38,344 nt of DNA from Candidatus Bathyarchaeota archaeon (GTDB lineage: Archaea; Thermoproteota; Bathyarchaeia; Bathyarchaeales; Bathycorpusculaceae): positions 1-38,344 of the forward strand of contig JADGNF010000017.1 in assembly GCA_017883615.1 (NCBI GenBank), given 5' to 3'. Made by a program: the position numbers and the translations under genes. The notes under the pieces were generated by a model, which worked only from the letters and a program-made list of their open reading frames with translations, made no database searches and was not told the DNA's origin. Of this stretch, positions 85 through 36,160 are shown one piece after another. Every line of letters starts with the position of its first letter. The first letter of the stretch is position 1.

Positions 85-126
85 AAGTCTCTTAAGTCAA
101 GTTAGACCTATAGTTGCTTGATTGCT

Positions 127-1212
127 ATGGGTAAGACATTCATGGCAGCAATCATCGTATGTACTATGTTGCTTTCAATTGCCGCAGGAATACAAACTGT
201 AAAGGTGGAAGGACAAAACTTCTATGTCAAGGTCACAATGACACTGATTACCCCAACTCAGAACAAAACCTACACAAATAACATGTATTGTGCCGTGAAC
301 CTAAAAGTTGAACCACAATTCTCTTATGTGTACGTAATTGATGAATCGGTCTTGTACAGGATAGATAACAACTCAAATGTCTTAATTACGACTGATGAGG
401 GATTAGGGACGGAAATTTATCTTGGCGATCTGCAAAATGGAACACATAAACTTACAGTAACAACTCAAGTGAAATATGTAATTTCTGCGTCTCCATACTC
501 TTCAAATTCAAACCAATACCGATATGCCACCGTTTACGTGCAGCAATTTCCCTCAATAAACTTTTCAGTTCTCAGCATTCCCGCAAGCATCCAAATCTTC
601 AGTCCCCAAAACCAAACCTACAATACGTCTGATATCACGCTTAATGCCGTAACTAGTTTCCCATTTTCTTATTACTATCACACTAATACAGCAGCAGTTA
701 GTTACAGCATAGATAACCAATCCGACCAACACTATGTTTACGGACCAGAAATCTTGCCAGGATGGACGGATGGCTCTCACAGCATAACAATTCATGCTTT
801 TAAAAATGATGAAACCGTTTTCTTCAGCGTTGACACAACACCGCCAAACATCTCAGATTTATCCATAGAAAACAGAACATTCATCTCCCCTGATGTTCCA
901 GTCAGGTTCAATGTGAACGAGACCTCACAGATTGCATACAGTCTAGATAATCAAGCTAATGTCTCCGTAAATGGGAACTTCACTCTTAACGGCTTAACAG
1001 AAGGCACACATAGCATAGTTATCTACGCAAATGACAATGTGGGAAACATGGGTAAAACTAACATTGCTTTCTTTACGGTAAACAAAGCAACACCCTCTCC
1101 TAGTCCTACTCCTAAAGCGAACTTCTCAGATTGGATTCCGTATGCAACGATAGCTGTAGCTGTTGGCTTGGGTGCAAGTGCTCAAGTTTACTTTAAGAAA
1201 CGTAAGAAGTAG
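127..1212 (+). CDS. Secreted, C-terminally anchored surface protein with Ig-like repeats
   Basis: Probable cell-surface protein of about 361 aa. I prefer the ATG at 127 over an in-frame TTG at 118. The N-terminus has a short basic start and a hydrophobic signal stretch (AAIIVCTMLLSIAAG). The body is rich in Ser, Thr, Asn and Tyr, with many N-x-S/T sequons, and contains two or three related modules carrying SIDNQS/SLDNQA and GTHS/GSHS motifs typical of Ig-like folds in archaeal surface proteins. A PSPSPTP linker follows near residue 330, then one membrane helix and a terminal KKRKK stop-transfer sequence. The architecture therefore predicts an exported, glycosylated and membrane-anchored protein. 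No enzymatic motif is visible, and ligand and function are unknown. Codon use is A/T-rich compared with the housekeeping genes downstream. Confidence 0.75.
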   Translation: MGKTFMAAIIVCTMLLSIAAGIQTVKVEGQNFYVKVTMTLITPTQNKTYTNNMYCAVNLKVEPQFSYVYVIDESVLYRIDNNSNVLITTDEGLGTEIYLGDLQNGTHKLTVTTQVKYVISASPYSSNSNQYRYATVYVQQFPSINFSVLSIPASIQIFSPQNQTYNTSDITLNAVTSFPFSYYYHTNTAAVSYSIDNQSDQHYVYGPEILPGWTDGSHSITIHAFKNDETVFFSVDTTPPNISDLSIENRTFISPDVPVRFNVNETSQIAYSLDNQANVSVNGNFTLNGLTEGTHSIVIYANDNVGNMGKTNIAFFTVNKATPSPSPTPKANFSDWIPYATIAVAVGLGASAQVYFKKRKK

Positions 1213-29996: not shown

Positions 29997-32411
29997 TCAC
30001 GGATTTGCCCAACTTTGTTTAACATGAAGGTTTTTTGAGCGAAGAAAATGCCATGTTTTATGTGAGACCTGACATATTAAGGCGCTAATTGCTATGGCAA
30101 AAGCCGGGAAAGCTGGAAGGATATAATAGTAAATTTTTGTTTGGGCAACGGTAAAAACCAAAAGCACAATCACTATCCAAGTGATAACTAAAATGCCTCC
30201 TTTAGAACGCTTAATAGCCAAATATGCGCTAAGTCCAACTGCGAAAGGTAGAAATACTATCCAGAGCAAGTTTTCGCTGGTAACTAAATAGTTAAAGTAA
30301 TATAGGTAACTTCCAACGTGGCCTTCAACTGGGCTAATTGCACGGGCATAAGTTGAATATAGGAAATAGCTGTCCAAGAAACTAGTTCCGAAATGAAAAG
30401 ACATATAGATTAGCCAAGGAGCGAAAACCAGAAGTGCAACTCCCAAGAACAAAGCGAAGGTTTTTGTGATGAGAAACCTAATGTTCCTATTTGTCAGAAT
30501 GAGGTAAGTGATTACAATTACTGGAATAAGCAAAGCTTCCGTCTGTTTTGTCATTAATGCCAAACCAAAGCATAGGCCGCTTAAAGCTGCGTACAGATTA
30601 GTGTTTCTTTTGTCTTCGCTTGATAGCATGAAGTAGAGGCTAGTCAAAATGAAAAAGATGAGCGGGACATCAGTCATAGCGTGCGTTGCAAACGTGCTGA
30701 AAGTTGTGAATGTACCTAAAACTATAGCCGATAAGAAGCCCACTGACGTATTATACAACTTCTTTCCCAAATAGAAGACAGTCACTAATGCCAAAGTTCC
30801 GAATATCGGAACACAAAATCTTGAAGCAAAATTGGTTATTCCGAAGACTTGGTAGGAAAGAGATGTCAGCCACATTAAGAGCGGCGGCTTACCTGCCCAA
30901 ATTGCTATTTCGCCAAAAGCGGTAGGTGTTAAATAATCGCCAGTTTTAACCATATGAACTGCCATTTGAGAGTACGTTTGCTCGTCAGCAGCCCAGAGAA
31001 AATTGCCCCCTAGATTTATGAAGTATGACGCTGAAAAAATCAGAATTCCCAGCAGGCAAAGAGCTTCGGCGTGACTTGATAACCAGGAAAATTTTATGAT
31101 TGAAAATTTATTCATTTGAATGGCATTTTTTCGTTTATGGGTTGATTGAACGAACCGTACAACTGCAAAAACAAGGATGACCCCCGGAGCGATTGCGATC
31201 ACGTCGAACATGATGATAGTCCATGCTAACTGGTCGGAAGGCACGGAGGATACTGTTGCATTCGTCGAATTGCATAAAGAAAACGCGTAAAGGCAATGAT
31301 CGTAGGAGCCAATATACAACGTATCGTTTACGATCGTTGGGGAAGAATCCACATAATTTCCCGTTTGGTAACTCCATTGTATGGCTCCTGTTTGGGCGTT
31401 AAACGAATAGATGTTATAGTCTTCGGAGCCCACGTACAGGTTGCCGTCGGCAATTGTAGGAGAAGAACAAACCCAATACCCTGTTTTGGTTTGCCAAATT
31501 TCTTGGGCGTTTGATGCATTAATGCAGTAAACGCTATTGTCCTCTGAACCTACGTATACGCATCCATTAGCGATGGCCGGAGAAGAAGTAATGGTATCGC
31601 CTGTTTGAAATCCCCACACCCGGGCTCCATTGGAAGCATTCAAGCAAAAGACGTTACCTTCGTAGGAGCCGACATATACGCAACCGTCGTTTACACAAGG
31701 GGAAGATACACCGCTTCCTATCGAAGTATTCCAAATTTCATCACCTGTGGAGGCATTAATGGCGTAAAAGCAATTGTCGCCGGTGGCGATATATAATTTG
31801 CCGTTTAAGACCGCAGGTGAAGACATTACAGGGGATAGGGTTTTGTAGGTCCAGAGTATGGATCCGTCGGATTCGTTAAAACAATAAACATCGTGGTTTC
31901 CAGAACCCACGTATACTCGACCATCCGTAACGACGGGGCTAGACCTTACAGTAAATCCACCATTCCATCCGACCCATTTAATCCAAAAAGGCATGCCAGT
32001 GGTAATGTTTAAACAATAAAGCCAACCGTCATCTGAGCCGACGTATACACGATCACTGTCAATAGCCGGTGACGAGTCAACTTCTTCGCCAGTCTGGAAG
32101 TTCCAGACCAGCTGCCCTTTTGAGGCGTTAAAACAATAAATGTAGCCATCCTTAGAACCCACAAATACACAACCGCAGGCTACCGCTGGAGAAGACAAAA
32201 TCGCTCCGTTTGTAGTATAGTTCCATAAGAGTTTAGCTGAATTTGTTGTATTGTTACCATTTGAAACGCCGCTGTGGTTTGGTGTATGGCGAAACATTGC
32301 CCAGTCGTCTGTAATTGAAGAGGCATTGGTGCTTGAAGCAAATGGAATATACCATAATTGAACTAAAGTAAGCGCGATGAGGATGAATAGCATCCACTTA
32401 TATTTTCGCAT
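29997..32411 (-). CDS. PQQ-like eight-bladed propeller fused to a GT-C (GT39/ArnT-like) glycosyltransferase
   Basis: An 804-aa membrane protein. A signal-anchor helix (residues 7-25) is followed by eight repeats of about 40 aa at roughly 63-380. Each repeat has the PQQ-like pattern SSPxx..GxVYVGSxDGxxYCxNxxTG..xW, e.g. SSPAIANGCVYVGSED. They form a beta-propeller that should face outside. A helix at about 397-420 returns to the cytoplasm, and from about 450 comes a many-helix GT-C fold. Its DE motif (WAADEQTYSQMA, D476-E477) is the expected metal/catalytic site of dolichol-phosphate-sugar transferases, with KPPLLMWLTSL and a HAMTDVPL loop after it. Inferred role: transfer of a sugar from a lipid carrier to an extracytoplasmic acceptor. 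AAGGGG precedes the ATG. Codon use is A/T-rich. Confidence 0.85.
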   Translation of the reverse strand: MRKYKWMLFILIALTLVQLWYIPFASSTNASSITDDWAMFRHTPNHSGVSNGNNTTNSAKLLWNYTTNGAILSSPAVACGCVFVGSKDGYIYCFNASKGQLVWNFQTGEEVDSSPAIDSDRVYVGSDDGWLYCLNITTGMPFWIKWVGWNGGFTVRSSPVVTDGRVYVGSGNHDVYCFNESDGSILWTYKTLSPVMSSPAVLNGKLYIATGDNCFYAINASTGDEIWNTSIGSGVSSPCVNDGCVYVGSYEGNVFCLNASNGARVWGFQTGDTITSSPAIANGCVYVGSEDNSVYCINASNAQEIWQTKTGYWVCSSPTIADGNLYVGSEDYNIYSFNAQTGAIQWSYQTGNYVDSSPTIVNDTLYIGSYDHCLYAFSLCNSTNATVSSVPSDQLAWTIIMFDVIAIAPGVILVFAVVRFVQSTHKRKNAIQMNKFSIIKFSWLSSHAEALCLLGILIFSASYFINLGGNFLWAADEQTYSQMAVHMVKTGDYLTPTAFGEIAIWAGKPPLLMWLTSLSYQVFGITNFASRFCVPIFGTLALVTVFYLGKKLYNTSVGFLSAIVLGTFTTFSTFATHAMTDVPLIFFILTSLYFMLSSEDKRNTNLYAALSGLCFGLALMTKQTEALLIPVIVITYLILTNRNIRFLITKTFALFLGVALLVFAPWLIYMSFHFGTSFLDSYFLYSTYARAISPVEGHVGSYLYYFNYLVTSENLLWIVFLPFAVGLSAYLAIKRSKGGILVITWIVIVLLVFTVAQTKIYYYILPAFPAFAIAISALICQVSHKTWHFLRSKNLHVKQSWANP

Positions 32412-35443: not shown

Positions 35444-36160
35444 TTATTGAACTGGAGCTTGCGGAACAGTAGCAGGTTGTGAAGAGGTGCCTACCGCATT
35501 GTCGTACATCAGTCCTATAGTTCTTGAAAAGAACAGCCCTTCCAGAACCGAAAGGAATGCACCAAGAACCCAACCTATTGGTCCCAATGCGCCAGTTAAG
35601 GCCCCCACTATTGCTGCCGCAATGAAAACCGCGACAAAAAATGCGAGGTAGCGAATCCAACCGATTTTGCCTATCCTCCTAAAGATTTCGCCAAACGTAA
35701 AGGCGTTTCCAAAAGAGTTTGTTTTGACCATGTGAATTATGCCCATGAATGCAAATATGCCCAGTAGAAACGTGATGATGCCAATGACTATGAGGAAACC
35801 TCCTAGTGCGAAAATTCCTCCGGCGCTAAAGAAGTGTGCAGGGTTTGTAAAATTGTTTAGGACTGCTGCGGCTATGAATGGTATTGCGATTATCACTGCG
35901 ATTATGGCTATGATGATTAGCCAAATTATTGTGACAACAAAGATTTTGAGGCCTTCAAAGAACATTTCGCCATATCTTTCGAGTTTTGGCGTATTCTTTG
36001 ATGCTGGACTATCGCGGATGATGCGTGCGTAGTATCCTAGCGCTATGAAATTAACGATTGGAATAATTGAAACAATGATCAGTATCAGTAATTCGCTTAG
36101 GCGCTGAAAAATGCTTCCAGTGTATTGCGCTGCCTGATTTAAGTCATCTGATAAACCCAT
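35444..36160 (-). CDS. DUF4013-like polytopic membrane protein
   Basis: A 238-aa protein with about six membrane helices and characteristic Gly/Ala/Ile-rich stretches (TIIWLIIIAIIAVIIAIPFIAAA and ALGGFLIVIGIITFLLGIFAF, in parts). It begins with QRLSELLILIIVSIIPIVNFIALGYYARIIRDS, which fits DUF4013 proteins, common in archaea and of unknown role. The ATG at 36160 has an excellent ribosome binding site, AAGGAGA, 7-8 bases upstream on the minus strand. It ends with a soluble tail SQPATVPQAPVQ. The gene is alone and is followed immediately by the long stem-loop element at 35354-35434. Confidence 0.8.
   Translation of the reverse strand: MGLSDDLNQAAQYTGSIFQRLSELLILIIVSIIPIVNFIALGYYARIIRDSPASKNTPKLERYGEMFFEGLKIFVVTIIWLIIIAIIAVIIAIPFIAAAVLNNFTNPAHFFSAGGIFALGGFLIVIGIITFLLGIFAFMGIIHMVKTNSFGNAFTFGEIFRRIGKIGWIRYLAFFVAVFIAAAIVGALTGALGPIGWVLGAFLSVLEGLFFSRTIGLMYDNAVGTSSQPATVPQAPVQ

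Follow-up and report, generated by a model that had tools for sequence, protein, structure and literature searches.

The window analysed here, i.e. the whole stretch of 38,344 nucleotides from a contig of a Candidatus Bathyarchaeota archaeon, contains on its minus strand an open reading frame (29997..32411) that runs from an ATG to a stop codon with zero internal stops and encodes a protein of 804 amino acids. From the N- to the C-terminus, the frame includes a signal peptide, a beta-propeller, a transmembrane (TM) helix, a cytosolic linker and a GT-C glycosyltransferase domain; the preliminary description of this DNA had already read it as a fusion in one frame, and alignable relatives are indeed joined too. 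The hexamer AAGGGG, a possible ribosome-binding site by its resemblance, is found immediately 5' of the ATG. The gene is flanked by a tRNA-guanine transglycosylase gene, also on the minus strand, and by a BrkB-like gene on the plus strand; a DUF4013 protein is also encoded in the window (35444-36160, minus strand). The parts of the fusion protein are the following:

32331..32411, minus strand: signal peptide or N-terminal membrane segment, residues 1-27, MRKYKWMLFILIALTLVQLWYIPFASS; residues 4-18 are helical in the model
31272..32240, minus strand: eight-bladed PQQ-like beta-propeller, residues 58-380, from Pfam, AlphaFold2 strands and the Foldseek match to Cake8
31140..31223, minus strand: connecting TM helix, residues 397-424; the helix of the model spans 397-433
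31071..31139, minus strand: cytosolic linker, residues 425-447, with five K/R and no D/E
30057..31070, minus strand: GT-C glycosyltransferase domain of about 10 TM helices, residues 448-785, from the PMT_2/PMT matches, the ArnT alignment, the model and the Foldseek matches to 5ezm/5f15

The N-terminus is similarly hydrophobic in nearly all fused homologues, and in this propeller family many unfused members terminate in a single TM helix near the position of the connecting one.

The N-terminal half matches the Pfam PQQ_2 model (E 3e-53), as well as a beta-propeller model. In the full-length AlphaFold2 model (mean pLDDT 81, pTM 0.76) a short N-terminal helix precedes eight four-stranded blades, followed by the helix 397-433 and a helical membrane domain; the ring is closed, with the N-terminal strand 58-66 completing blade 8. 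Foldseek comparison of the propeller with Cake8, an eight-bladed design, gave a TM-score of 0.95 on the target with an rmsd of 1.1, versus 0.74 for both Cake9 and Cake10; since the Cake8 match is far above the other two, the count of eight blades rests on more than a tally of motifs. Thus, what defines a PQQ-like eight-bladed propeller, namely eight four-stranded blades in a closed ring, is found both in the strands of the model and in the Cake8 match, and these data, together with Pfam, confirm the initial assignment. BamB structures match with TM-scores of about 0.8. BamB and other PQQ-like propellers (the Cake designs, YxaL) share the eight-bladed PQQ-like fold with the window propeller; however, the latter scores below the BamB equivalog cut-off (TIGR03300, 185.4 vs 285.2) and, differently from BamB, it is fused to a membrane enzyme. 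Scores for the PQQ-dependent dehydrogenase families are also far under their cut-offs (TIGR03075, 90 vs 480; TIGR03074, 18.5 vs 833), in line with the earlier statement that no PQQ-binding dehydrogenase residues were recognised, and a PQQ-cofactor role for the propeller was rejected on these scores.

The C-terminal half exceeds the Pfam cut-offs of both PMT_2 (PF13231; E 2e-24, 86.8 vs 26.1) and PMT (PF02366; E 1.5e-12, 48 vs 22.7). Modelled alone, it reaches a mean pLDDT of 87 and a pTM of 0.88, and its best Foldseek match is ArnT (TM-score of 0.78 on the query), ahead of AglB, Pmt4 and other GT-C enzymes; the GT39/ArnT-like polytopic domain proposed from the letters alone is therefore borne out. 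The GT-C(A) class is defined by a core formed by TM1-7, with the JM1 and JM2 helices between TM1 and TM2 (PMC12041299); this arrangement is present in the models, from helices 448-465 and 477-490 onward, and in the Foldseek matches. About 10 TM helices are counted for the GT half on our reading of the model and of the hydropathy profile, while ArnT has 13 TM helices and a C-terminal periplasmic domain. Indeed, the alignment to ArnT stops at chain residue 372 of 578, ahead of its last helices and C-terminal domain, and the score for the ArnT equivalog PRK13279 is 123.9 bits against a cut-off of 567.

A survey of 257 genomes of the class returned 24 with matches at E <= 1e-95; one of them (G183) was left out, having a propeller match only, so the fusion is carried by 23 of the 257: 22 of the 91 genomes in the family of the window, plus a single genome from a different family of the order. 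Two carriers are seen in part, G024 to residue 379 only, where its contig ends with the GT half beyond the sequence, and G006 to residue 760, also a contig end. No further carriers were found among 398 genomes drawn from the phylum. A scan of public contigs yielded two fusion records, both Candidatus Bathyarchaeota and apparently from the same genomes as the carriers G139 and G019; 314 plasmid records had a match, none of them covering 80% of the query, and no relative was found in a viral scan with the GT alignment. The genome of the window has a second full-length copy (contig C78:3348-5687), 50% identical to the first. In total, 27 sequences, with 47-61% identity to the window protein, align end to end, through the junction helix. 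Purifying selection acts to a similar extent on the two halves: comparison of two closely related copies (about 90% identity) yielded dN/dS values of 0.20 for the propeller and 0.19 for the GT half. The preliminary description had named two ways in which the fusion could prove illusory, an assembly artefact joining adjacent genes and close homologues that are always split; when these were checked, the same frame was found in the 23 genomes and in the paralogue, and close homologues turned out to be joined except for one stop-interrupted tandem copy.

This interrupted copy (G019:C58:40390-42748, seen in loci L046 and L039) lies beside an intact one and is either a pseudogene or a sequencing error; the same genome carries two intact fusion copies. 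Another genome carries a tandem pair of intact copies (G031:C5:19773-24500; identity to the window protein about 50%) and a third copy on contig C2. Phylogenetic trees were computed for each half with comparison sequences that were best hits, not an exhaustive set: in the GT-half tree, whose outgroup branches are long, all 26 fused copies are on one side of a branch with 92/99 support and the unfused L033 protein is the nearest to them, and in the propeller-half tree the 26 fused copies are grouped with 100/100 support versus 25 propellers that are unfused or joined otherwise. These data are most simply explained if a propeller-plus-TM gene and a GT gene were fused once, with duplication and loss afterwards. 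The closest unfused GT is 45% identical; its gene is flanked on one side by that of another membrane protein and on the other by a GT2 gene. The GT2 class includes polyprenyl-phosphate sugar synthases, which would agree with a polyprenyl-linked donor.

Residues with a role in ArnT were located in the fusion protein through a HMMER alignment to 5ezm, with an offset of three between chain and published numbering that was worked out by us. In ArnT, D55 and E56 are active-site residues, K85 and Y345 lie near the donor phosphate, D158 together with K203 is involved in acceptor contact and in a salt bridge, and R270 is described only at the edge of an unresolved loop (PMC7801869). The corresponding features are listed below, with their conservation among the fused sequences:

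30981..30986, minus strand: DE motif, D476-E477 (ArnT D55/E56), invariant in 27/27
30882..30893, minus strand: GKPP motif, residues 507-510, in which K508 corresponds to the donor-phosphate residue K85 of ArnT; K in 27/27
30669..30671, minus strand: D581, aligned with ArnT D158, 27/27
30546..30548, minus strand: K622, aligned with ArnT K203, 27/27
30318..30359, minus strand: external loop 4, residues 685-698, with R690 (the ArnT R270 position), E696 and H698, each 27/27
30123..30143, minus strand: QTKIYYY, residues 757-763, with Y763 at the position of ArnT Y345, near the donor phosphate; QTK in 27/27, Y763 in 26/26

The DE motif, which had been noticed at the outset, is therefore at D476-E477; its aspartate, aligned to ArnT D55, is placed at the tip of JM1, as is typical of the catalytic aspartate in GT-C(A) enzymes. 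R690 is better regarded as a conserved position than as a proven donor contact. The metal ligands of ArnT, E84 and H265/H267, are absent from the fusion family: at the E84 position, G507 in the window protein, 19 of the 27 sequences have G, five A, two S and one E, and at the H265 position 25 have Y and two F. Several GT-C enzymes have been reported to be metal-independent (PMC12041299), so these replacements weigh weakly against activity. Conversely, the six positions with a role in ArnT are invariant in all the sequences that cover them, which makes it likely, as far as residue conservation can tell, that the window protein is an active enzyme using a polyprenyl-phosphate sugar.

As for topology, the linker and the C-terminus are both positively charged; if they are on the cytosolic side, a domain of about 10 TM helices would bring both the loop with the DE motif and the propeller to the outer side of the membrane. 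The model has low confidence at 384-395 and 431-441, which leaves uncertain how the propeller sits relative to the active site. An external location of the propeller is also suggested by its N-glycosylation sequons. Two features of the ring are relevant to this point and to its function:

32121..32129, minus strand: sequon N95-A-S, in the turn that follows strand three of blade 1, with equivalents at N135, N179, N219, N258 and N298
31464..31484, minus strand: TGYWVCS, residues 310-316, the most conserved inter-blade loop, joining blades 6 and 7, with a mean column identity of 0.89

In the propeller part (residues 28-395) 15 N-x-S/T sites are observed against 6.5 expected, and none of 2000 shuffles had as many, while the GT half has one. 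Of the 27 fused homologues, 23-25 have the same-turn sequon in blades 1, 3, 4, 5 and 6, and 12 have it in blade 2. Three bacterial relatives of the propeller that were checked have no sequons in the matched part and two haloarchaeal ones have 1 and 5. Unfused propellers of the same archaea also have sequons at that turn, to varying extents; thus, the pattern is not special to the fusion. The same genome encodes, in a separate gene, a relative of STT3/AglB, which could use the propeller sequons. The pattern fits an exported, N-glycosylated domain, and a location of the propeller outside the cell is supported by these sequence features; the surface-facing position first suggested for the protein is probable, as sequon enrichment and charge topology agree.

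The eight blades are not conserved evenly. The D-A loop at 310-316 has a mean column identity of 0.89, versus 0.54-0.73 in the other seven D-A loops, and the conserved residues of the propeller are mostly structural. We take the turn with the sequons to be on the bottom face of the ring and the TGYWV loop to be on the top face. The scaffold role preferred in the preliminary description thus remains one option, but it does not stand as the only one, since the uneven conservation of the ring, with a peak at a single loop, is at least equally compatible with a binding surface.

The same propeller family is found in other contexts: unfused, with one TM helix, or joined to Ig, PKD, InlB-repeat and dockerin-like domains or to another multi-TM module; among its relatives in plasmid records, some proteins bear a Ser/Thr kinase annotation. 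The propeller behaves as a mobile extracellular module. In three loci, L102:1614-3623, L100:2153-4171 and L101:1554-3881 (all on the plus strand), the other multi-TM module, in frame with the propeller, is of about 240 residues, has a conserved G-S-x-G-L-A-M-C ... P-x-x-P-x-x-G-K pattern and occurs in two classes; it recalls site-2 proteases, without their HExxH, and Pfam gives no family for it. Two further propellers of this family, L041:1045-2829 and L047:988-2721 (both minus strand), come from another family of the order and have a weak dockerin-type C-terminus.

An acceptor was also sought in the gene neighbourhood, and this approach was dropped: among 21 fusion loci no conserved neighbourhood is present, with no cluster of neighbours common to more than 6. 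Recurring neighbours that could be identified are Lys-tRNA synthetase, an SPFH protein, ribosomal S3Ae, a class II tRNA synthetase, a PhoU-like protein, a PAS histidine kinase and a DNA polymerase of the IMS family, and they look unrelated to the fusion. The S-layer-like protein that had been indicated as a possible acceptor (118-1212, plus strand) gives a weak, sub-threshold bacterial Ig-like match in Pfam; this candidate was not upheld, considering also that it lies about 29 kb away and that the neighbourhoods are not conserved.

Taken as a whole, the protein is, in our judgement with slightly better than even chances, an active surface GT-C glycosyltransferase with the propeller as acceptor-binding module. 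The membrane half, GT39/GT83-like, would take one sugar from a polyprenyl-phosphate (dolichyl-phosphate) carrier at the outer face of the membrane, and the sugar would then be passed to an acceptor outside the cell; the propeller, also outside and tethered by its own TM helix, would hold or select this acceptor, which may be a surface protein or its glycan. What the data show is the fusion and its conservation, the predicted fold of both halves and the conserved catalytic and donor-site residues, and they support a propeller outside the cell; the enzyme activity, the kind of sugar, carrier and acceptor, and the binding role of the propeller are inferred from them. By analogy, the propeller could have the role of the MIR domain in PMT, of the TPR region in TMTC or of the C-terminal domain in ArnT; indeed, the ArnT match ends before the last helices and the C-terminal domain, so another soluble module could fill that place. 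A more specific and clearly more tentative proposal is that of a lineage-specific family of surface GTs, having an N-terminal tethered propeller as lectin-like or protein-binding acceptor module and a GT-C domain of about 10 helices without the metal site of ArnT.

In the main rival reading, which is the scaffold idea of the preliminary description, the propeller would have no part in acceptor choice and would serve for general adhesion or docking, anchoring the enzyme in the cell wall or in a complex: this is suggested by the recurrence of the same family unfused or joined to many other partners. It is rather unlikely, as the uneven conservation peaking at TGYWV points to one specific contact, although this contact could be with a docking partner. 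A sensor role, in which the propeller would respond to a ligand outside the cell and regulate the transferase, appears improbable; sensing is usually assumed for Ser/Thr kinase fusions such as those among its relatives, but no ligand pocket of a known type is shown by the window protein, and the segments that connect its halves around the one TM helix have low confidence in the model. Even less probable is that the propeller is the main acceptor itself, with a ring of N-glycans extended by the attached enzyme: the sequons recurring at the same turn of five blades in most homologues would agree with this, but unfused propellers of the same archaea carry them without any attached enzyme, and ordinary surface glycosylation explains them. 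Finally, the probability that two neighbouring genes were joined in the assembly or fused by chance is negligible, since nothing remains in its favour besides the stop-interrupted copy in G019, against the 23 genomes, the paralogue in the same genome, the alignable junction helix and the similar selection on both halves.

Returning to the acceptor-binding reading, known enzymes provide several terms of comparison. ArnT, the GT83 aminoarabinose transferase (PDB 5ezm/5f15), shares with the window protein the GT-C fold, the DE motif and the donor-phosphate lysine and tyrosine; however, its last helices, its C-terminal domain and the E84/H265 ligands are missing in the window protein, which has an added N-terminal propeller. 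The GT39 enzymes PMT/POMT share the Pfam PMT/PMT_2 match and a soluble, beta-rich outer or lumenal module on a GT-C domain; MIR domains of PMT bind mannose and affect processivity (PMC7759382), but they are lumenal beta-trefoils, whereas in the window protein the module is a propeller at the N-terminus, which has a TM helix of its own. The O-mannosyltransferases TMTC1-4 combine a shortened GT-C domain, with 11 helices aligned to ArnT, and a large lumenal domain of TPR repeats (PMC7801869); they resemble the window protein in this shortened GT-C plus a large soluble domain, differing in the C-terminal position of the repeats and in having 11 helices versus about 10. STT3/AglB oligosaccharyltransferases have the GT-C fold in common with the GT half; conversely, AglB moves whole oligosaccharides and its structural match is weaker than that of ArnT.

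Neither half of the protein is new; the open-licence literature searched has no example of the domain order propeller - TM - GT-C and nothing relevant on propellers plus GT-C in archaea, and going by it what would be new is this order. The sugars that each surface molecule receives are decided by GT-C enzymes, in some of which attached soluble modules affect the handling of the acceptor. The fusion comes from an uncultured archaeal group on whose surface glycosylation the literature searched has almost nothing, and the role of the module can be tested with the orthologues and paralogues of its conserved family and with the unfused forms of both halves.
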